Shown here piece by piece: positions 22,870 to 38,353 of a DNA stretch of 64,000 nt. The translations under genes were made by a program, and so were the position numbers. The DNA lies in NCBI RefSeq assembly GCF_003987275.1, contig NZ_PIQF01000001.1, positions 620,001-684,000 of the forward strand. Direction: 5' to 3'. The number at the start of each line of letters is the position of its first letter. Positions within the stretch are counted from its first letter, which is position 1. The notes under the pieces are model-generated. The model worked only from the letters and a program-made list of their open reading frames with translations. It made no database searches and had not been told where the DNA came from. The stretch is from Idiomarina seosinensis. GTDB taxonomy: Bacteria; Pseudomonadota; Gammaproteobacteria; Enterobacterales; Alteromonadaceae.

Positions 22870-22893
22870 CATCCCACAAGGAAACTGTAGATA

Positions 22894-23442
22894 ATGAAGT
22901 GGAATATCCCGAACATCTTAACTAGCTTCCGGATTGTATTAATTCCGGTATTTTTAGTTGTTTTTTATCTACCGTTTGAACAGGCACGTTTTTGGTCGGC
23001 GTTTATCTTTTTAGTGGCAGCTTTGACAGACGCACTCGATGGCTATATCGCACGCAAGTTTGATCAATTCACGGAGTTTGGCGAGTTTTTGGATCCGGTG
23101 GCGGATAAAGCCATGGTGGTGGCCGCATTGGTGGTAATCGTGGAAGATTACAACGCCTGGTACATTACCGTGCCTGCATTGACCATGATTTGCCGCGAAC
23201 TGATTGTTAGCGCACTCCGTGAGTGGATGGCACAGCGGGGCAGTCGCTCGGTAGTAGCCGTGTCTAATCTGGGTAAATTTAAAACCATCGCACAAATGGT
23301 GGCGTTAATTGGTCTGTTATGGAACGCCAATGTCTTTATTTTTTGGCTGGCCTTGGTATTATTTATGTTCGCATTCGTGCTGACGCTGTGGTCTATGTGG
23401 GAGTACCTGCGTTCTGCAGGGAGTCAATTGACTAGAAATTAA
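22894..23442 (+). CDS. pgsA: CDP-diacylglycerol-glycerol-3-phosphate 3-phosphatidyltransferase
   Basis: The 182-residue membrane enzyme has the complete CDP-alcohol phosphotransferase motif D-x2-D-G-x2-A-R-x8-G-x3-D-x3-D (DALDGYIARKFDQF through EFLDPVADK). The N-terminus MKWNIPNILTSFRIVLIPVF is typical of PgsA. It makes phosphatidylglycerophosphate, the precursor of PG and cardiolipin. It follows uvrC by 24 bp and precedes a tRNA cluster, a common gammaproteobacterial order. Confidence 0.97.
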   Translation: MKWNIPNILTSFRIVLIPVFLVVFYLPFEQARFWSAFIFLVAALTDALDGYIARKFDQFTEFGEFLDPVADKAMVVAALVVIVEDYNAWYITVPALTMICRELIVSALREWMAQRGSRSVVAVSNLGKFKTIAQMVALIGLLWNANVFIFWLALVLFMFAFVLTLWSMWEYLRSAGSQLTRN

Positions 23443-23538
23443 CTGCTTTGTCTTAAAAATAGCCAAACAGTCATAAAAATAGCAAAAAGTCATTGACTGA
23501 AAACGAATAGACAGTAGAATGCCACGGCAGATGACGGT

Positions 23539-23613
23539 GCGGGAATAGCTCAGTGGTAGAGCACAACCTTGCCAAGGTTGGGGTCGCGAGTTCGAATCTC
23601 GTTTCCCGCTCCA
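23539..23613 (+). tRNA. tRNA-Gly(GCC)
   Basis: A 75-nt cloverleaf runs from GCGGGAATAGCTCAG to TTCCCGC-TCCA, with anticodon loop TTGCCAA (anticodon GCC) and T-loop TTCGAAT. CCA is encoded. Confidence 0.97.
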
Positions 23614-23619
23614 AACATC

Positions 23620-23693
23620 GGCGGGTTGGCAGAATGGCTATGCAGCGGATTGCAAATCCGTGGATCTCGGTTCGACTCCGGGACCCGCCTCCA
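23620..23693 (+). tRNA. tRNA-Cys(GCA)
   Basis: A 74-nt cloverleaf runs from GGCGGGTTGGCAGAATGG to ACCCGCC-TCCA, with anticodon loop TTGCAAA (anticodon GCA) and T-loop TTCGACT. Confidence 0.97.
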
Positions 23694-23718
23694 TTGTTCG
23701 AGAACACTTCTATAAAGT

Positions 23719-23805
23719 GCCCGGGTGGTGGAATTGGTAGACACAAGGGATTTAAAATCCCTCGAAGGTAACTTCGTGCCGGTTCAAGTCCGGCCCCGGG
23801 CACCA
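23719..23805 (+). tRNA. tRNA-Leu(UAA), integration target of the island
   Basis: An 87-nt class II tRNA starts GCCCGGGTGGTGGAATTGG and ends CCCGGGC-ACCA, with anticodon loop TTTAAAA (anticodon TAA) and variable arm TCGAAGGTAACTTCGT. Its last 20 nt lie inside the island's left direct repeat, so integration keeps the tRNA intact. Confidence 0.97.
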
Positions 23806-23814
23806 ATTCCGATT
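23786..23814 (+). repeat. Left attachment site (attL), 29-bp direct repeat
   Basis: The repeat begins in the T-arm of tRNA-Leu (AAGTCCGGCCCCGGGCACCA) and extends 9 nt beyond the CCA (ATTCCGATT). The identical 29 bp recurs at 47133. Confidence 0.95.
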
Positions 23815-23918
23815 ATTTCAAAGTCTATTAAATGCCGCTAGCCATTGATTTTACTGGCTTTCAAGGCAAATACTGATTCCTTCTGTCTACATCAAATCGT
23901 TGCAAATCGATACTAAGT

Positions 23919-23966
23919 GGTGCTACTTTTGGTGCTACATCAATTCGGTTATGCGGATGTAGCACC
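23919..23966. promoter_or_regulatory. Candidate integrase arm-type sites, left end
   Basis: GGTGCTAC occurs at 23919-23926 and 23931-23938, 12 bp apart start to start. The inverse GTAGCACC lies at 23959-23966, touching the int start codon. The same pair with the same spacing occurs near the right end. Binding here could also repress int. Confidence 0.65.
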
Positions 23967-25274
23967 ATGGCAGACGACAAGCTAGTCATCGAAAAACATA
24001 AGCACGTCGAACACCTCAAACCCTCGGACCGTGATGAATGGTATCGGGTAGCAGGTGGCACCGGTTTAAGGCTTCTTGTAAGAAAGCAGGGCGGTAAGTA
24101 TTGGCGTTTAAAGTACCGGTTTCGTAAAAAGCAGAAGACGCTGGCGCTAGGTGTATTTCCTGAAGTAACTCTCAAGCAAGCAAAAGATGGAGTTATTAAG
24201 GCCAAAGCTATGTTGGCTGATGGTATCGATCCTGGTGAAACAAAATCATCAAATGCGAATGATAACAGTTTACGATTTTATGCGGCTAAATGGTTGGAAT
24301 ACCAATCCCAGGCAACGGCCCGGATCTGGTCTGAAGACCACAAGGCGAGGGTATGGAAGCGTCTTGAAAACGGCATCCTCAAAAAATTAGGTGATAAGCT
24401 GATCACTGACGTCCGTAAAGAAGATATTAGACGTTTAATTGAGAATGTTGAGGGCAAGGGTCACCATGAAACAGCCAAACGCATAGCGGACGATACACAG
24501 CGTCTATTTGAATACGTAGTCGATCAGTATTCGCTTGAAGACGATGTCGACATTCGTTTACTGCGACCCGTCAAAGTTATTTCCAAGCCGGTTGTTCACC
24601 GTGAAGCGCTGGACATCAACAATTTGCCGTTCTTCATGCAGGATCTAACTAACTATACGCAGACGGGTAGGGAATTAACGGCTCTGGCCATTGAGTTACT
24701 GATTCTAACGTTTGTGCGCTCAGGCGAGCTAAGAGGCGCTCGGTGGGAGGAGTTTGACCTTGATAACAAGGTTTGGTCGATTCCTGCAGAGCGTATGAAG
24801 ATGAAGCGGCCACATGACGTACCGTTATCAGTCCAGGCTCTTGATGTCATTAAACGCATCAAATGCATTACCGGCCACTATGAACTGTTATTCCCGTCTG
24901 AAACTAAGCCGGATGAGCCCATGTCTGATAACACAATGCGCCAGGCTATGTTCAAAATGGGCTACTTTCCGAAGGCGAAAGATACCAAAGACGGCAAGAT
25001 TGCTAAAACCTACCTTAAGTACCAGGATAACGCCCATTACCCTGATGGCCGTTTGAAAGAGAAGGCGGTGCCACATGGCTTTAGAACCATGGCGTCATCG
25101 ACATTGCATGAGAGTGATCAGAAGTTTCGGTCTGACGCTATTGAACGTCAATTAGCACACGTTGAACAGAATAAGGTGAAGGGCGCTTATTCGCATAAGG
25201 CTGAGTATTGGGATGAGCGGGTCGAGATGATGGAGTGGTGGGGAGAGTTTTTATATGATCAGAATAAGCGATAG
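23967..25274 (+). CDS. int: P4-type tyrosine integrase
   Basis: The 435-residue protein has the N-terminal arm-binding DUF4102-like domain (GLRLLVRKQGGKYWRLKYRFRKKQKTLALGVF, about residues 28-60), a core-binding SAM-like domain (about 95-190) and the catalytic domain with RSGELRGARWEE, HGFRTMASS and the C-terminal GAYSHKAEYW tyrosine region, i.e. R, HxxR and Y present. It is read inward from the tRNA, as in P4/CP4-57 islands. No clear Shine-Dalgarno precedes the ATG; instead a GTAGCACC box touches it. It is presumed to catalyse excision and integration at the 29-bp repeats. Confidence 0.95.
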   Translation: MADDKLVIEKHKHVEHLKPSDRDEWYRVAGGTGLRLLVRKQGGKYWRLKYRFRKKQKTLALGVFPEVTLKQAKDGVIKAKAMLADGIDPGETKSSNANDNSLRFYAAKWLEYQSQATARIWSEDHKARVWKRLENGILKKLGDKLITDVRKEDIRRLIENVEGKGHHETAKRIADDTQRLFEYVVDQYSLEDDVDIRLLRPVKVISKPVVHREALDINNLPFFMQDLTNYTQTGRELTALAIELLILTFVRSGELRGARWEEFDLDNKVWSIPAERMKMKRPHDVPLSVQALDVIKRIKCITGHYELLFPSETKPDEPMSDNTMRQAMFKMGYFPKAKDTKDGKIAKTYLKYQDNAHYPDGRLKEKAVPHGFRTMASSTLHESDQKFRSDAIERQLAHVEQNKVKGAYSHKAEYWDERVEMMEWWGEFLYDQNKR

Positions 25275-25364: not shown

Positions 25365-27692
25365 TTATGGGGCTTCTTTCGCCAATTGCTGCATGTTTAG
25401 AGACCTTGATTTCAGACCGGCACGACTGAAGCGATAACGCATATATGCTGAAATATCGTCCTCATGCGAGGATACGATGAGTTGGCAACGCTTAAGTTCG
25501 CAGCGAAGCAAATCTGTAAGCGAAGCAATGTTTACCTCGTCTAAAGATTGAGATGGGTCATCAATAAACATAAGTGGAACGTTTGCGTAAACCTTATTGA
25601 GGGAGAGAAAAAACGCAAGGCCTAAAGCAGATACTTGTCCTGTGCTCATGGATAAAACCGCATCATGATCTGACTTTTCCGCAGTTAGAAAACGAAGCTG
25701 TTTACCGTCTTGGCTTTCAATAAAAAGACCAAGACCGCGCTGGTAATTCTGAATCAGACGCCCACTGTATATATGGAATATTAGCTCAACCTCAGATATA
25801 GTTTGATCTGCATACTTTTGCTCTGCTTTTTTCAAAGTTGTCCGCAGTTTATTTACTTTTTCCTTCGCAAGGTTAGCAGCCTCATTCTCTTGCTGAATCT
25901 TTTTAAGGTTTGCTTGGCATTGTTGAAGTCTGTTACTTCTTGCCTCATTGGCTTTAAACTTGATATAGAGTTCTTTGTTTTTTATATCTTGATGATCAAG
26001 CATATAAAAGTCCTGCAGTTCTTTAAAAGCAGAAAAAATAATCTCACGCCAGTTATCCGGAAGGCCTCCGCTATCTTCTTTCTTCTTTGAGCGAATCAAG
26101 TCTAAAAGCTTTTTATGGCGGCTATCTACAACCACCTCATCTTCGCTGAATGAAAAGGTTACAGGAATGCCTTTAGCATTAAGCCGTTCAGCCAATTGAT
26201 CTATAGCAGTTAGGTGAGTTCTATTTTCATGTAGAACTCTATGTAATGCTTCGTCGTATTGACGTTTCAGATCTGTTTCGCGTGCCTTGATGAAGGTTTC
26301 AAGTGAATCTAGTTGGATGGTCATCTTATCGACCAACTTGATGAGAGCTTGGCCATCCTCTCCAAGAGAGTTAGAAATATCCTCAGCTCTTTTTTCTACT
26401 GCTTCAAGCATTGATTTATGGACTTTCCAATCATTGCCGCAGAGTGGACAAAGCGTGTCATCGGGGTAAATTTTTGCGTGTTCTTCGAGAACCTGCTTCT
26501 TCAGGCGAGCAAGTTCTGTGGCCGCGACCTCGTTCTGTACATTCTTAGACTGCAAACTATTGCGCTCGGTAATTTGAGCTTTAAACTGCTTGAACTGCTC
26601 GTTTTTCCACCCAGGTAACTCACTTGCTTGTTCTGTAGTAATATTGGCAGCTCCTTGTTTTATTACGGCTAAAGCTGCAGTCAATCGGTTAAGTTTATTT
26701 TTAGTTTTGTTGAGTTCTTCAAGCCTACTTCTGTCCGTTCCTAGCTTAGCTAAACGAGTCAGTAATTCCTTATTTCTATTAATTTCTGCTTCAATTTCCT
26801 CATTGTTTGCTCTGATGCGGACGACGGATTTTCTAGTGAGCAGTTCATCTAGCCTCCTAATAGCTTCGATGTATTGATCGTAACTTTCTTGGTCATAGAT
26901 AGGAAACGGCTCCTTCTTATCCCAGCCTAGTTCGGAATCAATCGTGGAAAGTCTTTTATATTTCGCGCTGGCAAAATCAGCCCCAATCATTTCACGCAAA
27001 GCAGCATATTCTGCTTGGAGAGAAGACTCATCAGTTTTCCGCTTCTCGTCACTTAAAAACCTAGAAAGCTTGGTTGAGATTGAACGGCAGTTTTCAATTT
27101 CTGTAGCAATATCACTGATGTTGAAAAGATTTCCTAGTTCATCTTTGCGCTCATCCACCCGCGTATGAAGAAGTTTATTTTGTCCCTGCTCTAAGTAATT
27201 AAGAAATGGAAAGTTTTCTCTAAAGTTTTCCCCAAAGACTTCATCCAAAAATTCGTTTTCACGAATATTAGCCGACGAAAAATCATCGGAATCAAATTCA
27301 GGTAGTTCGTATAGTGAGAATAGCTTGAATTCGTCTGCTCGGTTGTTTGTTTTTGTTTTAAATGCTTTTACAGGCGCATGTCTAGCTAAAATTAGTTTCC
27401 GTGGTCCGTTAACGAATTCGACTTTGATTGATAGATCTTGGTTTCTAGAGCGGTTATTCCAGAAAAGATTGTCATCATAATTTTTTTTCTGTTTTGTCAT
27501 CAAAGTCGCGAAGAGATTTTCAATCCTCTTTATCTTACCAGTTAGAAGTAATTCGATTGCGTCGAAAATAGTTGTCTTTCCGTATCCATTCGGGCCATCA
27601 AGAGTCAACAAAGATGAGCTACCTAAATCTAAGTCAATGTGTTTGAAAGCTTTGAAGCTAGAAATCTCAATTCGAGCTATTTTCCAATTCAT
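25365..27692 (-). CDS. SMC/Rad50-like ATPase of an ABC-three-component (Lamassu-like) defence system
   Basis: The 775-residue protein has an N-terminal Walker A GPNGYGKTTIFDAIE (about residues 34-48), two long coiled-coil arms (about 200-400 and 450-620) joined at a zinc hook CPLC (about 416-419), and a C-terminal ABC signature LSMSTGQVSALGLAFFLSL and Walker B PLMFIDDPSQSLDE. It is the last gene of a three-gene operon and overlaps the middle component by 26 bp. By analogy with LmuB it would sense foreign DNA and control the nuclease partner. A stand-alone repair ATPase is less likely given the operon. Confidence 0.88.
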   Translation of the reverse strand: MNWKIARIEISSFKAFKHIDLDLGSSSLLTLDGPNGYGKTTIFDAIELLLTGKIKRIENLFATLMTKQKKNYDDNLFWNNRSRNQDLSIKVEFVNGPRKLILARHAPVKAFKTKTNNRADEFKLFSLYELPEFDSDDFSSANIRENEFLDEVFGENFRENFPFLNYLEQGQNKLLHTRVDERKDELGNLFNISDIATEIENCRSISTKLSRFLSDEKRKTDESSLQAEYAALREMIGADFASAKYKRLSTIDSELGWDKKEPFPIYDQESYDQYIEAIRRLDELLTRKSVVRIRANNEEIEAEINRNKELLTRLAKLGTDRSRLEELNKTKNKLNRLTAALAVIKQGAANITTEQASELPGWKNEQFKQFKAQITERNSLQSKNVQNEVAATELARLKKQVLEEHAKIYPDDTLCPLCGNDWKVHKSMLEAVEKRAEDISNSLGEDGQALIKLVDKMTIQLDSLETFIKARETDLKRQYDEALHRVLHENRTHLTAIDQLAERLNAKGIPVTFSFSEDEVVVDSRHKKLLDLIRSKKKEDSGGLPDNWREIIFSAFKELQDFYMLDHQDIKNKELYIKFKANEARSNRLQQCQANLKKIQQENEAANLAKEKVNKLRTTLKKAEQKYADQTISEVELIFHIYSGRLIQNYQRGLGLFIESQDGKQLRFLTAEKSDHDAVLSMSTGQVSALGLAFFLSLNKVYANVPLMFIDDPSQSLDEVNIASLTDLLRCELKRCQLIVSSHEDDISAYMRYRFSRAGLKSRSLNMQQLAKEAP

Positions 27693-28332
27693 TGGCGATT
27701 AGTTCCTTTATTAGTTCATCTGAATTATTATTAGTGAGTTTTTGGACCGTTGCGTATGTTGAATCCAGACCCTCTTCAGCAACCGCCTCGCTAGCTTGCA
27801 TTCGAAGAGGAGTAAGCTGTCTGCGAGTGAATGGGAGCTCGAGAAATGGAAGTTTTATAAAAATCTTTGCAGCTACGCTATATTGAGAGGCTGCTAGTGG
27901 ATCTTCTTTATACTCTCTGAATCCGTCTTTATCAGAAATGGTCACCTCTAGGCTTTCATACGAGCACTGCTCAATAATTTTCTGTTCGGTATTGCTGTAG
28001 TACAAAACATACTTTTTGAAGAAATGAGGATCTTCTTCAATCGCAAATATGCGCTCTTCGAGACTCTTGAAATCGGCCAGTCTTTCTATTTGGTGAGTGC
28101 AGATTAGGTCGCAGTTCTTTTTAAAAGCCGGGTTGCTAAGGAATGAATCAGGTGCAGACTGATTGATAGTGGTATTTAATTCTTTTGGGGTTTCAAGCTT
28201 GTCCAGCTTATGGAGAATGGCAAACCTAACCGCAGATCCGGACTCACGAATATAAAAACTTGTGTGTTCGTTTTCACACTCCTTTACAAAGTCATGAGCT
28301 TTTAGTGCCTCGTCAATAATCCTATTTATCAT
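27667..28332 (-). CDS. Middle component of ABC-three-component system
   Basis: The 221-residue protein has no motif I can name. It begins MINRIIDEALKAHDFVKECENEH and contains FTRRQLTPLRMQASEAVAEEGLDSTYATVQKL near its end. It sits between the predicted nuclease (11-bp overlap) and the ATPase (26-bp overlap), in the place and size class of the middle component (LmuC-like) that bridges effector and SMC ATPase. The role is assigned from context, not from sequence. Confidence 0.65.
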   Translation of the reverse strand: MINRIIDEALKAHDFVKECENEHTSFYIRESGSAVRFAILHKLDKLETPKELNTTINQSAPDSFLSNPAFKKNCDLICTHQIERLADFKSLEERIFAIEEDPHFFKKYVLYYSNTEQKIIEQCSYESLEVTISDKDGFREYKEDPLAASQYSVAAKIFIKLPFLELPFTRRQLTPLRMQASEAVAEEGLDSTYATVQKLTNNNSDELIKELIANELENSSN

Positions 28333-29554
28333 TTATTAAATCCTCTGCGTCTTCTTTGGTCATAACGTTTAAGCAAAATGACTTGACGATATTGCTATCA
28401 ACACGCTCTCTCATTTTTTGATCGCTTAAATCTTCAGAGTGAGTAAATTTGGTATCAATAGTAAAAGATTTCGAGGATCTACTAGCAATAAGGTTGTTGT
28501 ACTCGAACAACAGCTTGAGAAGGTCCTCGTTACTTTCCATTTCTTCTATCAGGTCTGAAGTACACCCTTCGAGATCTTCTGGTAAAGGAAGATCAAGGGC
28601 TGTAGGAAGATAAAATTTCTTATCGCAGTCTAAATAGTGGGGGAACTGTTTTAGAATTGGCTCAACTTTCATAGTTTCGATAAGTGATGAATAACGTCGG
28701 ATATCAGCTTTCTGAATAGTTGAAAACCGTTCCGACGGCTTCATTAGTTGACAAAGTCCTATAAGCTCGGGGGGTTCTGCGAGCCGTATATGTTCAAAAA
28801 GGCGCTGCGCTCTGGCGTAGGTTGTGTCATTCATGTTTGGTAAAATCTGATTGACTCTATCTTCAAGGTAATTAGAAAGCCTAGCTTTCAGCTCCACAGC
28901 AAAATACTCGGTGCTATCATAAGGGTTCTTGGTCAATATATCGTTAAGTAGGCTGGCTGCTGAAATACGATTCTCGTAGGCGGCTCTAGTTGCCTTTAAC
29001 TGATCTTCTTGCACCAAGCGATGAATTTCTATTGCTTTAGAACTTATCTTGTTAGACAGAAGGCAGTAATTGTAATGTAAAAGGTCATCGCTAAGTGTGA
29101 TATTCTTCGTAGTACATATTTGCTGAATTATTTCTTTTGTTAGCTCCTCGATTTCACCTAAACCGCAATATTTTTTTTGACCATAATCGTAGAACGTGAC
29201 GGTCTCTCCATTGCTCGCTGTATAATCGCTGGTATCGTTTAATTTTAAAGAAACGTGGAAATAACGCGAAATACCTTTTGTACGATCAAGCTCTATCGCT
29301 GCGCATTTTTCTAAAGCTTCCTTGTATTGGTTACGGTAGGAGCCTATGTTTGCTTTCACTTGATGCGCGCTGGTTAAAGTATTTTCTTTATAGATGGCAA
29401 AGTCGTCACTACTATCTAACTGTAGTTCGAAATCCACATCACCTTGATTGATAAGTTTGAGGCAGTGGTATAGAGCAATTTTCCCCTGATAAACGTACCC
29501 ACTCCATGTCGTAACTGCAGTTGGTGGATATTTAACATCCGTATTTACATTCAC
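28322..29554 (-). CDS. Predicted nuclease effector of ABC-three-component system
   Basis: The 410-residue protein starts with a restriction-endonuclease-fold pattern seen in Cap4/DUF4297-type effectors: WSGYVYQGKIALYHCLKLI (about residues 18-36), a Glu in FELQLDSSDDFAIY (about 42-55) and HQVKA (about 64-68), the E/D...QxK triad. The remaining 300 residues are helical with no recognised motif and would hold the partner-binding C-terminal domain. It is first in the operon. DNA cleavage on phage infection is inferred from Lamassu/ABC-3C systems. Confidence 0.75.
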   Translation of the reverse strand: MNVNTDVKYPPTAVTTWSGYVYQGKIALYHCLKLINQGDVDFELQLDSSDDFAIYKENTLTSAHQVKANIGSYRNQYKEALEKCAAIELDRTKGISRYFHVSLKLNDTSDYTASNGETVTFYDYGQKKYCGLGEIEELTKEIIQQICTTKNITLSDDLLHYNYCLLSNKISSKAIEIHRLVQEDQLKATRAAYENRISAASLLNDILTKNPYDSTEYFAVELKARLSNYLEDRVNQILPNMNDTTYARAQRLFEHIRLAEPPELIGLCQLMKPSERFSTIQKADIRRYSSLIETMKVEPILKQFPHYLDCDKKFYLPTALDLPLPEDLEGCTSDLIEEMESNEDLLKLLFEYNNLIASRSSKSFTIDTKFTHSEDLSDQKMRERVDSNIVKSFCLNVMTKEDAEDLINDK

Positions 29555-30036
29555 TTCCTAAACCCCATTAATCCTTTCTAGCTACTTAATTTATGCCGAA
29601 AACGCGACTAGAAATTTTCAGTCACACTTAAATGTGAACGGTAAGTAATTGGCTTAAATGACTCAATACACATTACACGAATATTTTCGGCTCTGTACGC
29701 ATAAATAGAGCTAAACATTACCTCTCAACGTTAACAGACCAAATATAACCTTCAAAAAACGGATCTCATTATGATTCCTGATGGAGGTTAGTCGTTATGA
29801 ACCGATTAATAAAATCAGATGTTCGTTGCAGTTATAGAAAACTATCCACGGCACTCTGAACCTCAACTTTTGAGACATACATTATAACAGCGAGGCATGT
29901 AATGCGTTGCTTCCTACAACTGGTTCCCAAATTAACGAAATGGGAACAAGCAAACCCACTAAAAACGGGTTACTTACCTCTTTATACCCCCTTAAGTACT
30001 AAAAATCACGTTTTACAGCAAAAAAGGAACTAGACC
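29555..30036. other. 482-bp intergenic region between the ABC-3C operon and the compact recombinase
   Basis: AT-rich DNA that must hold the divergent promoters of both flanking units. It contains a 21-codon frame at 29797-29859 with a good ribosome-binding site (TGGAGGTTAGTCGTT-ATG), coding for a basic 20-residue peptide, and a 7-bp inverted repeat GTTCCCA/TGGGAAC at 29923-29947. I see no recognised RNA gene. Confidence 0.5.
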
Positions 30037-30597
30037 ATGGCCGAAGTACAAGCGGTTAAGGATCTGGATACCGTGAAGCTAATCAGCTACCTTCTCAGAC
30101 GAACTTACGGTCAGCAAATTGCTGACGTCTGGGATGTTGGCTTGAACTTGGCGTTGCGGATCTCAGACTTACTATCCATCAAGTTTGAAAATGTCGAGCA
30201 CGACCGGCTGTTGCTGGTTGAAGGCAAAACGTCGAAGCTAGCGACAATTAAACTCAATGAAAAGGCGAGGTCGGTCATCGCTCGTATTCGCGCTGAGCAC
30301 CCTGACCACATTTATCTCTTTCAGTCTTATCGAAACCAACGGTCTAAAAATACACCTGCAAAACCATTAAGCCGCCGTTACGTGTCGCGAGCATTTGCGG
30401 CAATAGGTGAGGAGGTTGGTATCGACTTAGGTACGCACTCTATGCGTAAAACCAGAGGTTACCATCTGTACAAGAACACTAACGATATTGCCAGGGTTAT
30501 GAAAATGCTGCGTCACAGCTCAGAGGCCGTCACGTTGCGATACATCGGAATAACCCAGGAAGATGTTGATAGGGACTTTGTTGAGCTGGAGCTATAG
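30037..30597 (+). CDS. Compact tyrosine recombinase
   Basis: At 186 residues this is little more than a catalytic domain: ALRISDLLSIKFENV carries the first Arg, THSMRKTRGYHLY the HxxR box, and LRHSSEAVTLRYIGI the last His and the nucleophilic Tyr. All catalytic residues are present, while the core-binding domain is missing. The size resembles FimB/FimE-like invertases and short phage-type recombinases. It may invert or excise a segment within the island; no target site was found. A good AAAAAAGGAACT ribosome-binding site precedes it. Confidence 0.88.
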   Translation: MAEVQAVKDLDTVKLISYLLRRTYGQQIADVWDVGLNLALRISDLLSIKFENVEHDRLLLVEGKTSKLATIKLNEKARSVIARIRAEHPDHIYLFQSYRNQRSKNTPAKPLSRRYVSRAFAAIGEEVGIDLGTHSMRKTRGYHLYKNTNDIARVMKMLRHSSEAVTLRYIGITQEDVDRDFVELEL

Positions 30598-30635
30598 AAA
30601 ACGATTGAAATAGTGGTTTGGGAATCTAAAGCAAA

Positions 30636-30656
30636 AGGCGAGGAAAGTCCTCGCCT
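30636..30656 (-). terminator. Terminator at the end of the hsdMSR-sirtuin operon
   Basis: A 9-bp stem AGGCGAGGA/TCCTCGCCT with a 3-nt loop is followed on the minus strand by TTTTGCTTT. It lies 20 bp past the small coupled gene and also follows the convergent recombinase gene. Confidence 0.75.
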
Positions 30657-30676
30657 CTTCATAACGTAAAGTCTTA

Positions 30677-30799
30677 TCAGACTTGCATCGTTTTAACCTT
30701 ATTTTCGGCTTGAGCTTTTTTGTAAGCTTCAACCAATTTAGCCATACCAGCTTTCTTTGCAGGATGGACAGAATACTCAGTTTTCTTTGATGAACGCAT
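30677..30799 (-). CDS. Small basic protein (40 aa) coupled to the end of the RM operon
   Basis: The frame encodes 40 residues, MRSSKKTEYSVHPAKKAGMA and a lysine-rich helix-forming remainder (10 Lys in total). It starts inside the end of the 155-residue gene (23-bp overlap, different frame) with an excellent ribosome-binding site AAGGAGGGACTCCATT-ATG, and is followed by the terminator. I do not recognise the family. The strong Shine-Dalgarno and the position support a translated gene. Confidence 0.65.
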   Translation of the reverse strand: MRSSKKTEYSVHPAKKAGMAKLVEAYKKAQAENKVKTMQV

Positions 30800-31244
30800 A
30801 ATGGAGTCCCTCCTTGCCCAAATTTTGAACATAATTGAATTTTAGTCTAGGTGCATGCCACTTGGCAAGCCTTTTATAGTATTTTACAAGCCTAGGGTCT
30901 GCGGCCATGGCGGTATATGCTTTTGCTGAGAAGCGGTTGCAATGATCATCTATAACGGCGGAGACTACTGAGCCCAGCTCATACATATTTATGTTCCATC
31001 CTACTGACGGAGGCTCGAACTGAATATTTTGCTCGACGTTACTCTCAAGGTCAAACTTCACTTCGTAGCAGTCGTCAGCCACCGGGAAACCTAGCTCTTC
31101 AGCATAAAAATCCCTTTCTTCAGAGCCTTCGACATAGTGAAAGGTGGTTGGTACAAAAAACACCTTATAGTCTACCCCTGTTATTTCTACTGAGTAGATA
31201 TGAGCGACGACATCATTAGCTACTTCAAACTCCTGAACCTGCAC
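30777..31244 (-). CDS. Unknown 155-aa protein in the RM operon
   Basis: The protein starts MQVQEFEVANDVVAHIYSVE from a GTG with AAGGA at the right distance; that Shine-Dalgarno overlaps the stop codon of the sirtuin-like gene, so the two are coupled. It is acidic in the first half (PTTFHYVEGSEERDFYAEELG) and basic near the end (KYYKRLAKWHAPRLKFNYV). No signal peptide, membrane segment or known motif is visible. Given the fixed spacing it probably works with the sirtuin-like protein, but its function is unknown. Confidence 0.75.
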   Translation of the reverse strand: MQVQEFEVANDVVAHIYSVEITGVDYKVFFVPTTFHYVEGSEERDFYAEELGFPVADDCYEVKFDLESNVEQNIQFEPPSVGWNINMYELGSVVSAVIDDHCNRFSAKAYTAMAADPRLVKYYKRLAKWHAPRLKFNYVQNLGKEGLHYAFIKEN

Positions 31245-31255
31245 AACTTGTATCC

Positions 31256-31792
31256 TTACGTCAGTGATTCATAGTAACTGAGCAACCTGTCGGCATTAAT
31301 CGAACATGCTGCATCTCCGACGCATTGATAACATTCAAGCTCCGGGTTTACTACTAAATTAAAACTAATAACCTTTTTTTGCTTACTCCGGCAATATGAC
31401 TCTAACCATGCTAATGGAAAGCCAAGCCCACTGACTCCGACCAAAATTATAAGCTTCTCGCTGATCCATGATAGGTCGTAGAAATCGATAGTTGCCAGTT
31501 CACTAATACTTCGGTCACGTGCTCTACCATATACATGTTCAACGGTGGCTCCACAGCTCTCATTTAAGTCATCTACATTAAGAGTAATGTGCCGCACTTT
31601 GATTTTTTGTTTTACAGCTTCTGACTGAAGCGTAGATAACTCTTTATGTGCTTTATTAGGTTTTAGCTGTTCTAGCTGTTCAAGCCCGGACCGCAGTAGA
31701 TCGACATTATTGTAGATGGGATACTTTCCGTTGAAGGTGGGAGCGCCTGATGGTGCTGACAATCCTGCTCCAGATATAATTAAAATACCCAT
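31256..31792 (-). CDS. Minimal Sir2-like protein lacking the zinc module
   Basis: The 178-residue Rossmann protein has the sirtuin NAD motif GAGLSAPSGAPTF (residues 8-20), PNKAH, the ribose-binding ITLNVDDLNESCG block (for ITQNVDxLHxxAG) and a later LIILVGVSGLGFPLAWLE matching IGTSxxVxPA. Sirtuins have LHG or MHG at the catalytic His; here the site reads HVYG, with Tyr. The four-cysteine zinc-binding insertion is absent, which explains the short length. It may bind NAD or ADP-ribose rather than deacetylate. It follows hsdR by 36 bp with its own GGAG. Confidence 0.75.
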   Translation of the reverse strand: MGILIISGAGLSAPSGAPTFNGKYPIYNNVDLLRSGLEQLEQLKPNKAHKELSTLQSEAVKQKIKVRHITLNVDDLNESCGATVEHVYGRARDRSISELATIDFYDLSWISEKLIILVGVSGLGFPLAWLESYCRSKQKKVISFNLVVNPELECYQCVGDAACSINADRLLSYYESLT

Positions 31793-31828
31793 CTTTAGTC
31801 TCCGAAGTTTCGCAGTATCTACAGGGAA

Positions 31829-34800
31829 TTATGAAGCGTCACGATTTTCCACCAACATCTTCAATATCAATCTAGCAAACCCATCTCTTACCGCAGGGTT
31901 TTCCAGCACTTCCATCGATAGCTTTTCATGATCATCCATCGAATCAACAACACGGTCTAATAGACGCTGTGGCAGTAGGCCATGCATTACCTCGTTTTCT
32001 GAGTGCTTGTTGACCTGGGCCATGATTTCATCGTCTTCACGTAAGCGACCGGCTATTCCTTCGGCGTAACGAAGTTTGTGTTCGTCACCAACTTCGGCAC
32101 CAAATAAGTCATTCAAGGCATCGATGATTTCCTGCAGCTTTTTCTTCTCGGGGTCATGTGGTTTACCACTACCGACGGCTTTTACAGAGCTTAGGTAGCC
32201 TCCATCTTCTTCACCAAGCTTCAATTCTTTTTCGGCTTTCTTGGTGGTGCGGTAATGCGTCAGTGTCATTCCAGATATATCGACATCGTCTTCATCGTCC
32301 AAGCGTTCGACACGAAGTAGCGGGAGTAGACTCTTAGCATAAACGCACAGCGACTCGAGCTCATGGTCGTTGTAAGGAGTTATCTGAGACAGAAACTCAT
32401 ACATCCGCACGTAGCTGTTCAGGTTCTTCTTGAACAGGTCAAGTTGGTCGACCATTTCACCAGCGGCTTTAACCGAGTCCTCAGCTTTATTAATGCTGAC
32501 CTTATCACCCGAAATACGCGCCTGGTTCAGCATGTCTTTAGCCTGCTTTAGCGTATCAACGGCATGGTTATACCGAGCCATAAAACGCTCTTTGGCTGGT
32601 TTACAGTAATAGCCTAGTTTTGAAGAAGGCGCATTCGGGTCGTAAAACGCCTCGGCAAACTTCTCCACTTCCGACCATTCGTAAATATGCTCTTCATCCA
32701 GCTTACTCATAATGTCGAACAGAATGTGTGGGTCGGTAACGGAATCAAGCTCTGCGGTGGTGTAGTAGGGCTTGAACGACTCCAGAATGTCCTCTTCGCT
32801 GTTAAAGAAGTCGAGAATGAAGGTCTGGTCTTTACCCGGGAAGGTACGGTTTAAGCGCGACAGCGTCTGCACACACTCAACGCCTTGCAGTTTCTTATCG
32901 ACGTACATGGCACAGAGCTTGGGCTGGTCAAAGCCGGTCTGGTACTTGTTGGCGACAATCATCACGTTGAAGTCGTCGGAGTCGAGCGCGTTATCGTGCT
33001 TGCGACCGTTCAAACCTGGGTTTAATTTTTTATCGTACTCGGTCACGCTCTCGGTAATGTAATCATCCGCAGGAACCTCACCGGAGAATGCCACCAGCGC
33101 ATGCACGTCCTGATAGCCTTTATCGACAATGTAACTGGTCATCGCTAACTGATAACGAACTGCTTCCTGACGGCTGCCGGTGACCACCATGGCTTTGGCC
33201 TGGCCGTTCAGCAAGTGACGGACGTTTTCACGAAAATGCTCGACGATGATTTCAACACGCTGGTTAATGTTGTAAGGATGCAACCGCACCCACTTAGCCA
33301 GCTTAATGCGAGCTTTTTTACTGTCGACTTCTTTGTCCTCACCCTCGGGATGAGCAATCTTCCAGGCCGTGGCGTAGGTGGTGTAGTTTTTCAGTACGTC
33401 GAGAATAAAGCCTTCTTCAATGGCCTGACGCATGGAATACACATGAAACGCTTTGGGTTTATTGTCATCGCTAATAGGTGAATGCGGGTCATCTGGGCGA
33501 CCGAACAGTTCAAGCGTTTTACCTTTTGGTGTCGCGGTAAACGCGTAGTAACTGATGCTCTCGTTCGGCATTCGCGCCTGCACGGCGGCGTCTAACAGCT
33601 CTTCTGCACTGATGTCATCACCTTCAGGACGGTCAGAGCCTAGCAGTGCTTTTAGCTTACTGGCAGATGCACCAGTTTGTGACGAATGGGCTTCGTCCGC
33701 AATAATTGCATAGTTACCGGCTTGCAGAGCAGGGTACTTATCAATGGCGTCATACAGCGCCGGGAAGGTCTGGATGGTCACAACAATAATTCGTACTTGC
33801 TCCTGCAGTGCTTCGGCCAGTTGCTCAGACTTACTCTTATTGCCGACATCGCGTGTGATCGCCCGCACCACCCCGTCAGCGTGCTCAAACTGCCGAATGG
33901 TGTTCTGCAACTGCGAATCGAGTACCGTGCGGTCGGTGACCACCACAATGGAGTTAAACAGCTTAGAGCCGTCGTCAGCATATAGCGATGATAGCTGATG
34001 AGCTGTCCAGGCAATTGAATTGGATTTGCCCGAGCCTGCACTATGCTGAATAAGGTACTTACTGCCTGGGCCTTCACGGCGTGTGGTATCGATGAGTTGA
34101 TTCACCACGTCCCACTGATGATAACGGGGAAATATTAGCGTTTCTTTTTTCTGTGTGCGCCCGTCGAAGCCTTCTTTTTCTTCGACCTCCAGGTGCATAA
34201 AGCGGCCAATGACTTTTAGCCAGGCGTCTTTGTTAAATAACCGCTCCCACAGGTAACTGGTGGCGTAGCTATTTTCAGACGTCGATTGCGGGTTACCGGC
34301 AGCGCCGTCTTCTGTGCCCAAGTTAAACGGCAGAAAAAATGTTTCCTTGCCTGCTAATTTAGTGGTCATGGCCACTTCGTCCTGGCTGACCGCAAAATGC
34401 ACCAGGGCACCGCGCTTAAACGTTAATAGCGGCTCTGGCTTGCGGGTGACCGGATCTTTTACTGGACGGTCGTTTTTATACTGGCGTTTGGCGTGTTCAA
34501 CGGTCTGTTTGAACTCGCTTTTCAGTTCCATGGTCGCGGTTGGAATGCCGTTGACAAAAAACACCAGGTCGATGCGCGGATTATAGTCGCCTTCACGCGC
34601 GTGGGGCGAGTAGGAGACTTCCTCAACCACCCGCAACCGATTGGATTGATAGCGGCGCTCGGTATCGGGGTTCATGCCATGGTCGGGGCGAAAGGCGCAG
34701 ACTTTGATGGTGCCGCCAATGGCTTTAAAGCCGTGACGCAACACGTGCAGCGCGCCGTCACGAGTCATGCCTTTAACAGCGGCGTGAACTAAGAGCTTTT

Positions 34801-34993
34801 CCGGCTCACCCGGGTTAGATTTGGAAAAGCGCTCCCACCGGTCAGGGTAGGCGTCTTTTACAAAACCGATTAAGTCTTCGGTATACACCGCGTTCGCTTT
34901 ATCGTAATTAGCAGCGGAGCCAATTAACCAGCCATCTTTTTCCAGGCTGTTAAGTATGTCCGTCTGGAACTGACGCTCTTTGGTGTCAGCCAT
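31829..34993 (-). CDS. hsdR: Type I restriction enzyme R subunit
   Basis: The 1054-residue protein has an N-terminal nuclease with PRIDLVFFVNGIPTATMELKSE (D...ExK, about residues 140-160), a superfamily 2 helicase with Walker A SAGSGKSNSIAW (about residue 320), DEAH (IIADEAHSSQTG, about 430) and a second RecA domain (MIVANKYQTGFDQPKLCAMY). It translocates and cuts unmodified DNA as a complex with HsdM and HsdS. It overlaps hsdS by 8 bp and appears intact. Confidence 0.97.
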   Translation of the reverse strand: MADTKERQFQTDILNSLEKDGWLIGSAANYDKANAVYTEDLIGFVKDAYPDRWERFSKSNPGEPEKLLVHAAVKGMTRDGALHVLRHGFKAIGGTIKVCAFRPDHGMNPDTERRYQSNRLRVVEEVSYSPHAREGDYNPRIDLVFFVNGIPTATMELKSEFKQTVEHAKRQYKNDRPVKDPVTRKPEPLLTFKRGALVHFAVSQDEVAMTTKLAGKETFFLPFNLGTEDGAAGNPQSTSENSYATSYLWERLFNKDAWLKVIGRFMHLEVEEKEGFDGRTQKKETLIFPRYHQWDVVNQLIDTTRREGPGSKYLIQHSAGSGKSNSIAWTAHQLSSLYADDGSKLFNSIVVVTDRTVLDSQLQNTIRQFEHADGVVRAITRDVGNKSKSEQLAEALQEQVRIIVVTIQTFPALYDAIDKYPALQAGNYAIIADEAHSSQTGASASKLKALLGSDRPEGDDISAEELLDAAVQARMPNESISYYAFTATPKGKTLELFGRPDDPHSPISDDNKPKAFHVYSMRQAIEEGFILDVLKNYTTYATAWKIAHPEGEDKEVDSKKARIKLAKWVRLHPYNINQRVEIIVEHFRENVRHLLNGQAKAMVVTGSRQEAVRYQLAMTSYIVDKGYQDVHALVAFSGEVPADDYITESVTEYDKKLNPGLNGRKHDNALDSDDFNVMIVANKYQTGFDQPKLCAMYVDKKLQGVECVQTLSRLNRTFPGKDQTFILDFFNSEEDILESFKPYYTTAELDSVTDPHILFDIMSKLDEEHIYEWSEVEKFAEAFYDPNAPSSKLGYYCKPAKERFMARYNHAVDTLKQAKDMLNQARISGDKVSINKAEDSVKAAGEMVDQLDLFKKNLNSYVRMYEFLSQITPYNDHELESLCVYAKSLLPLLRVERLDDEDDVDISGMTLTHYRTTKKAEKELKLGEEDGGYLSSVKAVGSGKPHDPEKKKLQEIIDALNDLFGAEVGDEHKLRYAEGIAGRLREDDEIMAQVNKHSENEVMHGLLPQRLLDRVVDSMDDHEKLSMEVLENPAVRDGFARLILKMLVENRDAS

Positions 34994-36374
34994 AATGCCT
35001 CTCCGTTTGCACTAACGCGTTTGAATCCACTGTATCGGAACCTGCAGGCGGTTGCCAGTCACGGACATCAATTTTGCCGGTAACGGCGGCTGAGATTAAG
35101 GCAGAGCGGCGTTCTTGTAGCAGTTCAACCGCCTTTTCGGCTTGCTCCGTTAACTGGTTTGAGTTTGATTTAAACCTGTGCCATTCCTCGACGATCGCTT
35201 TTTGTTCTATCAACGGTGGGACAGCAACCTTCACATTTTTAAAGTCTTCTTGAGCTATGTTTTGCATGCTAGAGCTTGCACCAGCGCAAACTAATTTAAT
35301 CTGGCTTCTGTAGCTTTTTGACAGCGTGAACATGAAAATAAATTGAGCCTCCACATTTTCAAGCGTAATTTGCCAGAGACGATCAGGAAGAAATAAGTTG
35401 CCAGGGTTTGTTAAACTGAAGCCTGTAGCACCGACGAGCTCCGGGGTATTCATCCTGGATACGATTAGCCTATTAGCCTTCAGCTGACATGAAACACGGC
35501 TTTCTTCTTCCTTTACTACTGTTTTATTTTGATTAACGTCGAGTTCGTCACCATAAACTGCGCTAGTTTTCAAAACCCCAAGCTCACCTTCGGAGGCTGG
35601 AGTATCTGCCGCGTTAACGCTTGTACCTGATTCAACCAACCTTATAAATGCCTTTAAACTAGCAACTTTCCAATGCTCGGGCACTTCCCCGAGCCACTCA
35701 ACACCAGAGTCTTTCATCGGTGCGTCTGGATTAAGCCCTTTGCTCACCGCATGGCTGATAACCGCCTGGCGCTTTTCTTTTAGAAGCCCAATCAACCGCT
35801 TTTGCTCATCAATCAACACATCAATTTTTGCCGTTTCGTAGTCGAGGAACTGGGCTATTTTTTGTTGTTCAATAAAAGGTGGAGCTGGAAAGGGGAAAGA
35901 TTTAAGCTCATCTGTCGATAGTTCTAGGAAGGTAGTCCCTCTGCCCCGAAGGTTTAATTGTTCTGTTGCTATACTAAGGAAATAGTAGGCATAAACGGCA
36001 TGCCCCCCCTCTGGGACTAGGGCTTTACAACCTTGATTCGTGCACATACTCTTCATGGCAATAGCCAAGCTTCCTATTGGAGCTCTTGTAGACAATATAA
36101 TTGAGCTACGAGGCACAAGTTCAGCACCGCAGGAATCCAGTCCCGATTTAGTTATGCGACGTGCAGAAAACTCCACATAATCATTACCTAACTGGCTCAA
36201 GTCGGCAGGTGTTATCCAGTCAATATCACCATTCCAGTAGTTGTCTATTGACGAGGATGGTGTAGAGCCGGAGACAATTTTGAAGAGTCTCTTTGCTTTT
36301 GACAACTTCCAATGATAAGGAATATCTCCAATCCACGCGAGTGGAGTATCTTTCATTTGAGTATATGGTCTCAC
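34986..36374 (-). CDS. hsdS: Type I restriction enzyme specificity subunit
   Basis: The 462-residue protein has the two-target-recognition-domain layout: repeats PLAWIGDIPYHWKLSKAKRLF at the start and VEWLGEVPEHWKVASLKAFI near residue 230 open each half, and IEQQKIAQFLDYETAKIDVLI and IEQKAIVEEWHRF close them with helical spacers. Each half reads one part of a split recognition site. It overlaps hsdM by 4 bp and hsdR by 8 bp. The recognition sequence cannot be told from sequence. Confidence 0.95.
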   Translation of the reverse strand: MRPYTQMKDTPLAWIGDIPYHWKLSKAKRLFKIVSGSTPSSSIDNYWNGDIDWITPADLSQLGNDYVEFSARRITKSGLDSCGAELVPRSSIILSTRAPIGSLAIAMKSMCTNQGCKALVPEGGHAVYAYYFLSIATEQLNLRGRGTTFLELSTDELKSFPFPAPPFIEQQKIAQFLDYETAKIDVLIDEQKRLIGLLKEKRQAVISHAVSKGLNPDAPMKDSGVEWLGEVPEHWKVASLKAFIRLVESGTSVNAADTPASEGELGVLKTSAVYGDELDVNQNKTVVKEEESRVSCQLKANRLIVSRMNTPELVGATGFSLTNPGNLFLPDRLWQITLENVEAQFIFMFTLSKSYRSQIKLVCAGASSSMQNIAQEDFKNVKVAVPPLIEQKAIVEEWHRFKSNSNQLTEQAEKAVELLQERRSALISAAVTGKIDVRDWQPPAGSDTVDSNALVQTERHYG

Positions 36375-38353
36375 GCCGACAACTCCTCAATCATTTGCTT
36401 GATCTTATCGGTGCATTGTTTGAGGTCTGCGTCAATTTCCTCGAGTGGGCGAGGGGGCTCGAATACGTAAAAGTGCCTGTTGAACGGAATTTCAAAGCCA
36501 ACTATACCGACTTCGCCGTCTTGCTCGTCGCGCTTGCTTTCGTCTATCCAGGCATCTGGTACGTGTGGTTTGACTTCATGTTCAAAGTACTCGTAGATGT
36601 CTTCTGTTAGCGGCACGTTTTCGTAATCGCGTAAGCCAGCGTCAGCTTCTACATTTCCTTTTTTGTCGGCACAGACATCAGCGTCGCTGTCGCGCTCGCT
36701 TAAGGCATTGAGCACGGCTTTTAGTTGTGCAGCGGTTAGCTTTACGTCGCTTGCTTTGAGTTCGGCGTTCAGTGCTTTGGTGAAGTCATCACGACTCGTT
36801 AACAGGGTATCAGCGTTAATGCGCTGAATGGTCTGTTTAAGTTGGTTAAAGTCGTCGGTTTTAAGCTTTTGCAATGCCTTTTCGTCGTCTAACAGGGCGA
36901 CACGCTCTTCACTGGCCTGGAAGTTAAGCCGTAATGGGCGCTCGATGGTGATACGACGGTAACCAAAGGCTTCGTTAGGGAAGACCTTACTGTTTTTTGT
37001 TTCTTCCATAGCGCCGTATAAACGCACCAGTTCATTGATGTTCTCTTCGGTCAGGTATTTACGCTTGCTACCGAGTGATTTACGCATTTTGGCAAAAGCT
37101 TCGCTGCCGTCAATCAATTGCAGTTTGCCTTTACGTTCAGGCTTTTTGGCGTTGGATAAGATCCAGATATAGGTACTGATGCCGGTGTTAAAGAACATAT
37201 CCGTGGGCAAGGCGACGATGGCTTCGACCAAATCGTTTTGCAATAGGTAACGGCGGATCTCAGATTCACCGCTACCCGCAGAGCCGGTAAATAAGGGACT
37301 GCCGTTTAAGATAATACCGATACGCGAGCCACCATCACGTGTGTCTCGCATTTTGCTGACCAGATGCAACAAAAAAAGCAGTGAGCCGTCGGAAACGCGG
37401 GGTAGGCCGGGCCCGAAGCGACCATCGAAGCCTTTTACCTTGTGCTCGTCGTTAACGACACGTTGTGAGGCTTTCCAGTCGACGCCAAACGGAGGGTTAG
37501 CCAGCATGTATTTGAACTTCTCATGCGCCAGCTGATCGTTCGACAGCGTGTTACCGAGTTTAATGTTGTCGACTTCCTGGCTTTTGATCATCATGTCTGC
37601 TTTGCAGATGGCATAGGACTCTGAATTGAGCTCCTGGCCAAACAGCTTAACGGTAACCTTTTCACTGATGGACTGAATGTACTCTTCGGACTCTGACAAG
37701 AAGCCGCCGGTGCCAGCAGTCGGGTCGTAGATGGTAATGATGCTGTTGGGTGAAAGCACTTCTTCCTGACCGGTCATCAATAACGAGGTTGCTGCATGCA
37801 CACAGTCACGAGGGGTAAAGTGTTCACCGGCAGTCTCGTTTGAACTTTCAGCAAACTTGCGTATGAGCTCTTCAAAAATAAGGCCCATGCCGTAGTTAGA
37901 GATATTGTCGGGTGATAAGTCTATCTTAGAGCCGAATTGCTGAGTGACCTGATACAGAAGGTCAGCTTCAGCCAGTTTCAGCACAAACTCTTCAAAGTTA
38001 AAGTGCTCGAATATCTCACGGGCAGAGCTGCTAAATGACTGTACGTAAGAGATTAAGTCTTCCGCTGTTTGAGTATCTGACAAGGTTGCCAGAGTCAAAG
38101 ACGAAGCGTTGTAGAAGTCGTTCTGTGACTCGCGTAGCAATAACTGCTCACGCACTGCGTCGGGTCTGTTATGGTGCTGTTTTGCGGCTTCTAGTACCTT
38201 TTGTTTATTCGGCGCTAAAACGCACTCTAAGCGACGTAATAGGGTAAAGGGCAATATGACCCGTCCGTACTGAGATTGCTTAAAATGGCCACGCAGCAGG
38301 TCTGCCACCGACCAGATAAAGGAAGCGGTTTGAGAGTAGTTTTCAGTATTCAC
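36371..38353 (-). CDS. hsdM: Type I restriction-modification N6-adenine methyltransferase
   Basis: The 660-residue protein has an N-terminal HsdM helical domain (SFIWSVADLLRGHFKQSQYGRVILPFTLLRRLE), SAM-binding motif I DPTAGTGGFL (about residue 215) and catalytic motif IV NPPFG (about residue 286). It is longer than E. coli HsdM (529), with a coiled C-terminal extension ending in a domain with VGFEIPFNRHFYVFEPPRPLEEID. It is first in the hsdMSR operon, 142 bp downstream of alpA. Confidence 0.96.
   Translation of the reverse strand: MNTENYSQTASFIWSVADLLRGHFKQSQYGRVILPFTLLRRLECVLAPNKQKVLEAAKQHHNRPDAVREQLLLRESQNDFYNASSLTLATLSDTQTAEDLISYVQSFSSSAREIFEHFNFEEFVLKLAEADLLYQVTQQFGSKIDLSPDNISNYGMGLIFEELIRKFAESSNETAGEHFTPRDCVHAATSLLMTGQEEVLSPNSIITIYDPTAGTGGFLSESEEYIQSISEKVTVKLFGQELNSESYAICKADMMIKSQEVDNIKLGNTLSNDQLAHEKFKYMLANPPFGVDWKASQRVVNDEHKVKGFDGRFGPGLPRVSDGSLLFLLHLVSKMRDTRDGGSRIGIILNGSPLFTGSAGSGESEIRRYLLQNDLVEAIVALPTDMFFNTGISTYIWILSNAKKPERKGKLQLIDGSEAFAKMRKSLGSKRKYLTEENINELVRLYGAMEETKNSKVFPNEAFGYRRITIERPLRLNFQASEERVALLDDEKALQKLKTDDFNQLKQTIQRINADTLLTSRDDFTKALNAELKASDVKLTAAQLKAVLNALSERDSDADVCADKKGNVEADAGLRDYENVPLTEDIYEYFEHEVKPHVPDAWIDESKRDEQDGEVGIVGFEIPFNRHFYVFEPPRPLEEIDADLKQCTDKIKQMIEELSA

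Follow-up and report, generated by a model that had tools for sequence, protein, structure and literature searches.

A Sir2-like gene and an overlapping gene pair as a putative mobile cassette behind a type I restriction-modification operon of Idiomarina seosinensis

Introduction

Toxins with the GNAT fold are encoded in two-gene toxin-antitoxin (TA) modules on mobile DNA, such as AtaT-AtaR, KacT-KacA and TacT-TacA, and the known ones are reported to pair with DUF1778/RHH antitoxins (PMC9177977, PMC9431474). Sirtuins enter comparable systems: sirtuin-macro domain TA-like systems, in which a sirtuin gene is coupled to a partner gene, and sirtuin effectors of phage conflict systems have been described (PMC9503650). 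Further points of comparison are the CobB-type deacylases, the defence proteins ThsA, DSR2 and Sir2-HerA and the phage Sir2 family PHROG 2162. Here we analyze a trio of genes, encoding a Sir2-like protein and two further proteins designated X and Y, which follows the type I restriction-modification (RM) operon hsdM-hsdS-hsdR in Idiomarina seosinensis. The window is the whole 64,000-nucleotide stretch that was analyzed (contig NZ_PIQF01000001.1, positions 620,001 to 684,000 of the forward strand), and coordinates refer to it.

Like the GNAT modules, X-Y is a two-gene unit on mobile DNA, and AtaT and KacT are among the best, yet weak, matches of the X model in the PDB. X differs from these toxins in having no acetyl-CoA motif in the expected loop and in its partner, which is a basic peptide, mostly of 40-50 amino acids (aa), encoded at the 3' end of X; Pfam found no DUF1778/RHH antitoxin gene among the adjoining window genes, a scan that did not extend to the 40-aa Y. 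With the sirtuin-macro systems the trio has in common a sirtuin and a partner gene, but X has a GNAT-like model and no macro-domain match in Pfam (28 X rows). CobB proteins have the same Rossmann motifs for binding nicotinamide adenine dinucleotide (NAD), and CobB is among the best structure and sequence matches of the Sir2-like protein, whereas the latter is shorter, lacks the cysteine zinc module and the Arg of the FRD motif, has Leu for the Gln of TQN and has Tyr or His at the catalytic position. A sirtuin-like domain near defence genes is also found with the defence sirtuins, but neither the Sir2-like protein nor X is matched by any PADLOC model, and Pfam found no SLOG, HerA or TIR domain in these two proteins, to which the scan applied. 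The Sir2-like protein matches PHROG 2162 (E 4.7e-13), the model of which has 277 positions versus the 178 aa of the window protein, and X has no PHROG match above chance. No title or abstract opening on such a Sir2-X pair was found in literature searches, which does not prove that it is unpublished.

Results

The trio in Idiomarina baltica and its relation to hsd genes

The independence of Sir2, X and Y from the type I RM operon, behind which they would have landed as a self-contained mobile cassette, is well supported, not least by comparison with Idiomarina baltica OS145 (L009, among 15 loci found in a contig search with an alignment of seven X proteins). The I. baltica trio is 93-100% identical per 60 bp to that of the window. 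The match between the two genomes spans 29923-31803 at 95%, ending 11 bp upstream of the Sir2 start codon (ATG in the window, GTG in I. baltica), and identity steps up near 30661. Synonymous divergence (dS) is 0.06 for Sir2, 0.03 for X and 0 for Y versus 0.415 for the adjoining convergent recombinase, and this contrast together with the identity step points to an exchange of Sir2-X-Y itself, as a unit, that would be more recent than the recombinase common to both genomes. Upstream of the I. baltica trio a different HsdR (in two open reading frames, ORFs; 24% identical to the window HsdR over 482 aa) is followed by a YgjP-like metallopeptidase gene and a DUF2971-like gene, the latter call scoring under the family cut-off, and no HsdM or HsdS homologue was found within the 14 kb of this locus examined.

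An initial annotation of the window had proposed that the tail behind hsdR is an RM component, keyed to RM failure or controlling HsdR. In 36 of 274 genomes, its own included, the window HsdR is matched at E<=1e-100, and 29 loci (L069-L097) of the 38 other matches were taken for a check of the neighborhood, all of which were read. Sir2, X or Y was found downstream of hsdR in none of the 29, where the downstream sequence covered at least 771 bp in 25 loci and 113-419 bp in L072, L088, L092 and L097. In tblastn, Sir2 matched within the hsdR coding sequence of L075 (E 7e-4) and of L076 (E 7e-3), and X matched in L097 (E 1.0), all of which we take as chance. Conversely, blastp with the window HsdM, HsdS and HsdR (E<=1e-4) found no homologue in L003-L067 or L113 other than the one in L009 and those of the window itself, a search that distant types could escape and in which several flanks were only 3-4 kb; none was found in the 8-20 kb around each of seven copies in which Sir2 is fused to X. 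On the I. baltica layout, the 29 HsdR loci and the fused copies, an RM-linked function of the tail was judged unlikely, and the cassette is very probably independent of the RM system. Other genomes thus show no tie of the trio to this hsdR, the outcome that the initial annotation had named as refuting its idea, and they confirm the tie of Sir2, X and Y to each other.

Distribution of X, Y and the Sir2-like domain

X was found at 36 places (window, L003-L026, L028, L034, L043, L044, L057-L062, L113), with six further plasmid records that have an X match outside this count. L004, L015, L024 and L025 have near-identical X, L059 and L062 are from one genome and L016 is split. The settings include plasmids, viral contigs, chromosomes and an integron-like array, and the carriers are mostly Gammaproteobacteria plus one Desulfococcaceae genome. 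In L008 (a Klebsiella plasmid) and L026 (a related viral contig) two diverged X-Y pairs lie in tandem, the second of which was left out of the count. The X-Y pair of L011 is one of a row of short ORFs between which near-identical linker translations recur, and by its look this row is a candidate chromosomal integron array.

A profile built from six seed Y peptides was run on 8801 ORFs. These come from 113 loci, counting duplicates, and 62 of the loci have no X match. It gave 44 matches at E<=1, every one at an X 3' end (the seeds match by construction); 42 start within 150 bp of that end, and in L019 and its duplicate L056, which account for the remaining two, the Y frame opens at a start codon further upstream and overlaps X. 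Such a match is present at 28 of the 36 X places. The isoelectric point (pI) is 10.1-11.9 in all 15 Y peptides tested and at most 6.2 in 29 of 36 X rows, in which duplicates and two fragments are counted and fused forms excluded. Judged from these sequences, X and Y form a pair of overlapping genes that is conserved, and its recurrence elsewhere is more than chance.

The Sir2-like domain accompanies X at nine of the 36 places, as a separate gene in the two Idiomarina genomes (window and L009) and fused to the X N-terminus in a single ORF at seven (L003, L010, L012, L013, L028, L057 and the viral contig L113). At the other 27 no Sir2-like gene was found in the stretches examined, which were only ~3.4 kb for L043 and L058-L062. 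On this distribution the Sir2-like domain is an optional partner of X-Y. The remaining ORFs with a Sir2 match encode CobB-type proteins that came from the genome searches, except in L042/L065, where a shortened remnant of the fused form occurs without X; in L065 (~10000-11100) the remnant is followed by an ORF that looks transposase-like.

The Sir2-X subfamily is rare in the samples searched. X was found in one of 274 genomes of the class sample, that of the window itself, and in three of 147 of the family sample, where the subfamily Sir2 occurs in two (own genome included in both counts) and five further Sir2 matches are CobB-like. The Enterovibrio family sample has full Sir2-X in three of 247 genomes, none of them new to this survey, a remnant in one genome and X without Sir2 in two, and the Yersinia order sample has X in six of 295, one of them Sir2-X. 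In the phylum sample 20 of 398 genomes match the fused profile, and among the 21 places listed only the own genome matched beyond position 119.

The Sir2-like protein

The Sir2-like protein matches Pfam SIR2 (PF02146) with 28.7 bits versus a cut-off of 24, and it misses the NCBIfam deacylase cut-offs (best 40 bits versus at least 221). It had no match in the phages collection, and a scan of viral_contigs with the window Sir2 alone gave none. Eight cassette copies were aligned with seven CobB-like proteins. The GAG, NxD and GxS motifs are retained in all eight copies, the Gln of TQN is Leu and the Arg of FRD is gone in all eight, and the cysteine zinc module is absent throughout. Of nine copies, five (window, L009, L003, L028, L057) have Tyr where the catalytic His is expected and four have His (L010, L012 and L013 in the alignment, L113 outside it), and the occurrence of Tyr in several copies marks it as a subgroup trait. 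The initial annotation was therefore right in describing a 178-residue sirtuin-like protein that has no zinc module and has Tyr for the catalytic His, and also in joining it to X and Y; the trio lies near other defence genes. Such a domain is rather likely to bind NAD without being a deacylase; that it is a sensor rather than an NADase is an even bet.

Predicted structure of X

X has no family above chance in Pfam, NCBIfam, PHROG or PADLOC, no relative in the PDB by sequence (best E 0.062), and two X proteins tried had no match in the phages collection; resemblances to a PepSY domain (Pfam E 0.066) and to a TBC1 relative (PDB sequence search) were taken as chance. AlphaFold2 modelled X alone with a predicted local distance difference test score (pLDDT) of 85.7 and a predicted template modelling score (pTM) of 0.81, and the fused Aliivibrio Sir2-X with 75.9 and 0.59, the fused model matching PDB sirtuins (best E 3e-6). 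Among the best 50 PDB rows for the X model, many of which repeat the same protein, 42 have a title or name that identifies them as acetyl- or acyltransferases (a count that takes in NAT9 and PCAF), led by AtaT and including 12 rows of AtaT or KacT. The other eight are isocitrate lyase 2 (four rows), Rv1916, LasI, TDP2 and an unnamed bacterial toxin. X is best described as having a weakly GNAT-like predicted fold rather than as an established acetyltransferase. The fused model also had 17 matches at E<=0.001 to predicted viral structures, with a protein of the Zeta-toxin domain and unnamed phage proteins at the top and some sirtuins among the rest, for which the aligned region is not given, so they are not used as evidence.

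The window locus and its island

The hsdM, hsdS and hsdR genes form a type I RM operon according to Pfam and PADLOC, with the domains of all three subunits present. The coordinates (Table 1) bear out the gene overlaps within this operon and the three close spacings of the tail that had been noted initially, and a hairpin at 30659-30633 agrees with the terminator placed after the last gene. No promoter-like site was seen in the gap between hsdR and Sir2, and two lie inside X; the scan as a whole is at the level of shuffled sequence (8 promoters versus 8.7 and 7 terminators versus 8.4 in shuffles). From the spacing, the tail is probably co-transcribed with hsdMSR in the window.

Table 1. Features of the cassette and its neighbors in the window
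Feature	Position	Strand	Remarks
hsdM	36371-38353	-	Pfam HsdM_N/N6_Mtase; neighbor of the cassette
hsdS	34986-36374	-	Pfam Methylase_S; neighbor of the cassette; 4-bp overlap with hsdM
hsdR	31829-34993	-	Pfam HSDR_N/SWI2_SNF2; neighbor, not counted in the cassette; 8-bp overlap with hsdS
Sir2-like gene	31256-31792	-	178 aa; Pfam SIR2; 36-bp gap after hsdR
X	30777-31244	-	155 aa; GTG start; 11-bp gap after the Sir2-like gene
Y	30677-30799	-	40 aa; pI 10.1 (basic); first 23 bp shared with the 3' end of X
Terminator-like hairpin	30633-30659	-	12 pairs; 3' of Y
Inferred exchange unit	30661-31803	-	I. baltica OS145 has 93-100% identity per 60 bp here
Short tyrosine recombinase	30037-30597	+	186 aa; convergent with the cassette; also in I. 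baltica, more diverged

The island that holds the cassette would start at a tRNA-Leu gene (23719-23805), which is followed by an integrase gene and, further along, by the cassette. In the window, 23539-25274 holds tRNA-Gly, tRNA-Cys and tRNA-Leu and then the integrase gene, and I. baltica matches 22504-25243 at 84%, because of which both islands seem to use this tRNA site. SMC-like ATPase, MComp1 and CTD1/LmuA-like genes (25365-29554) adjoin the recombinase as an ABC-three-component or Lamassu-like module, and the I. baltica island has a reverse transcriptase gene (RVT_1; L009, 10499-11644). Elsewhere, a PIN-TPR-GreABC protein (L063), a Bro-N gene with an integrase (L064) and an amidase with a cytosine methylase (L113) lie near cassette copies, and in L064 (9120-9644) a repeated SLPHRQLRK translation near Sir2-X is by its look a candidate CRISPR array.

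Discussion

For the whole we favor, with slightly less than even confidence, a mobile cassette in which X-Y is TA-like and the Sir2-like domain is an NAD-linked regulator, and for which we infer the following mechanism. X-Y would act like a toxin-antitoxin or effector-antidote pair, a reading that falls a little short of an even chance and is proposed because of the pairing, the overlap, the mobile setting, the model resembling GNAT toxins and the basic Y. X would be the effector, its fold being GNAT-like but devoid of the acetyl-CoA loop, and Y, a small, basic and probably helical peptide made by translational coupling, would bind X and keep it inactive. The Sir2-like domain would bind NAD+ or an ADP-ribose product and so couple X to the NAD state of the cell; the Tyr-type copies, that of the window included, would probably be sensors rather than deacylases, and use of NAD+ may persist in the His-type copies. 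Growth would then stop when X is freed, either by the loss of Y or by falling NAD+.

Several observations weigh against this interpretation. No PDB match of the X model reaches E<=0.001 (the best has 0.008, and template modelling scores are 0.22-0.50 in the best 50). The acetyl-CoA motif of GNAT proteins has the form R/Q-x-x-G-x-G/A; it is missing from the window X and is matched in two of 35 X rows, both outside the expected loop, and X without it need not be an enzyme. The Y profile misses eight of the 36 X places, where ORFs of another kind are found: one of 47-48 aa and other sequence overlaps X in L008, L022, L023 and L026, one of 29 aa is at the X of L059 (L062 being in the same genome), and L060 and L061 have longer, unlike small ORFs. 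Seven of the 36 X rows have a pI of 6.6-9.6, so a charge pairing with Y is not general. Three Yersinia species carry X-Y at one same chromosomal place, a fixed location that also suits a housekeeping role. Between the Idiomarina copies the ratio of nonsynonymous to synonymous divergence (dN/dS) is 0.45 for Sir2 and 0.35 for X, from only 18 and 7 differences, versus 0.05 for the recombinase, and Y has no synonymous and two other changes, hence these sequences carry no strong sign of purifying selection on the trio. Lastly, both Idiomarina copies sit downstream of an hsdR, so some link may exist in these two genomes.

This last point, with the close spacing and probable co-transcription in the window, would suit a tail that either regulates the type I RM system or adds a further layer of defence to it. 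We regard such a role as highly improbable given the dissimilarity of the two HsdR proteins, the YgjP-like and DUF2971-like genes that intervene in I. baltica, where HsdM and HsdS homologues were not found in the 14 kb examined, the seven fused copies with no hsd homologue in the 8-20 kb around them and the 29 HsdR loci read, none of which shows the trio downstream. The Sir2-like domain could instead be the effector, an NADase or ADP-ribosyltransferase restrained by X and Y as in known Sir2 defence systems. Its retained GAG, NxD and GxS motifs, the His of four copies, the defence-type neighbors (the PIN-TPR-GreABC protein of L063 and the LmuA/ABC-three-component module of the window) and the sirtuin effectors reported from phage conflict (PMC9503650) all agree with this. 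It is nevertheless unlikely: X-Y must have a function without Sir2 at the 27 X places where no Sir2-like gene was found in the stretches examined, the Gln of TQN is Leu in every aligned copy, and Tyr replaces the catalytic His in five of the nine. SIRT1 H363Y, a His-to-Tyr change, is the standard inactivating mutant.

X-Y might also be no toxin pair at all, X being an accessory protein and Y its partner, chaperone-like or RNA-binding, both serving mobile elements in anti-defence or transcription take-over. X-Y adjoins phage-type genes on Serratia plasmids and is found on viral contigs, and Y is strongly basic, but X-Y also occurs in chromosomes and in an integron-like array, where TA pairs are common, and the recurring overlap and pairing suit an antidote; we consider this rather unlikely. 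The TA-like interpretation can be taken further, to an undescribed TA-like family on a GNAT fold without a cofactor site, which in some lineages has acquired a sirtuin fold no longer capable of deacylation (zinc module absent, Tyr for His); this fold would sense NAD+ and thereby control the toxin. Such an enzyme turned switch is a speculative proposal of low probability.

What had been taken for an extension of an RM operon is replaced by a two-gene family that has no name yet and recurs on chromosomes, plasmids and viral contigs. With X-Y on its own, with a neighboring Sir2 gene and with Sir2 fused to X, the family offers a natural experiment in the joining of a sirtuin domain to a possible conflict module, and the split between His and Tyr copies makes the question of enzyme or sensor directly testable.

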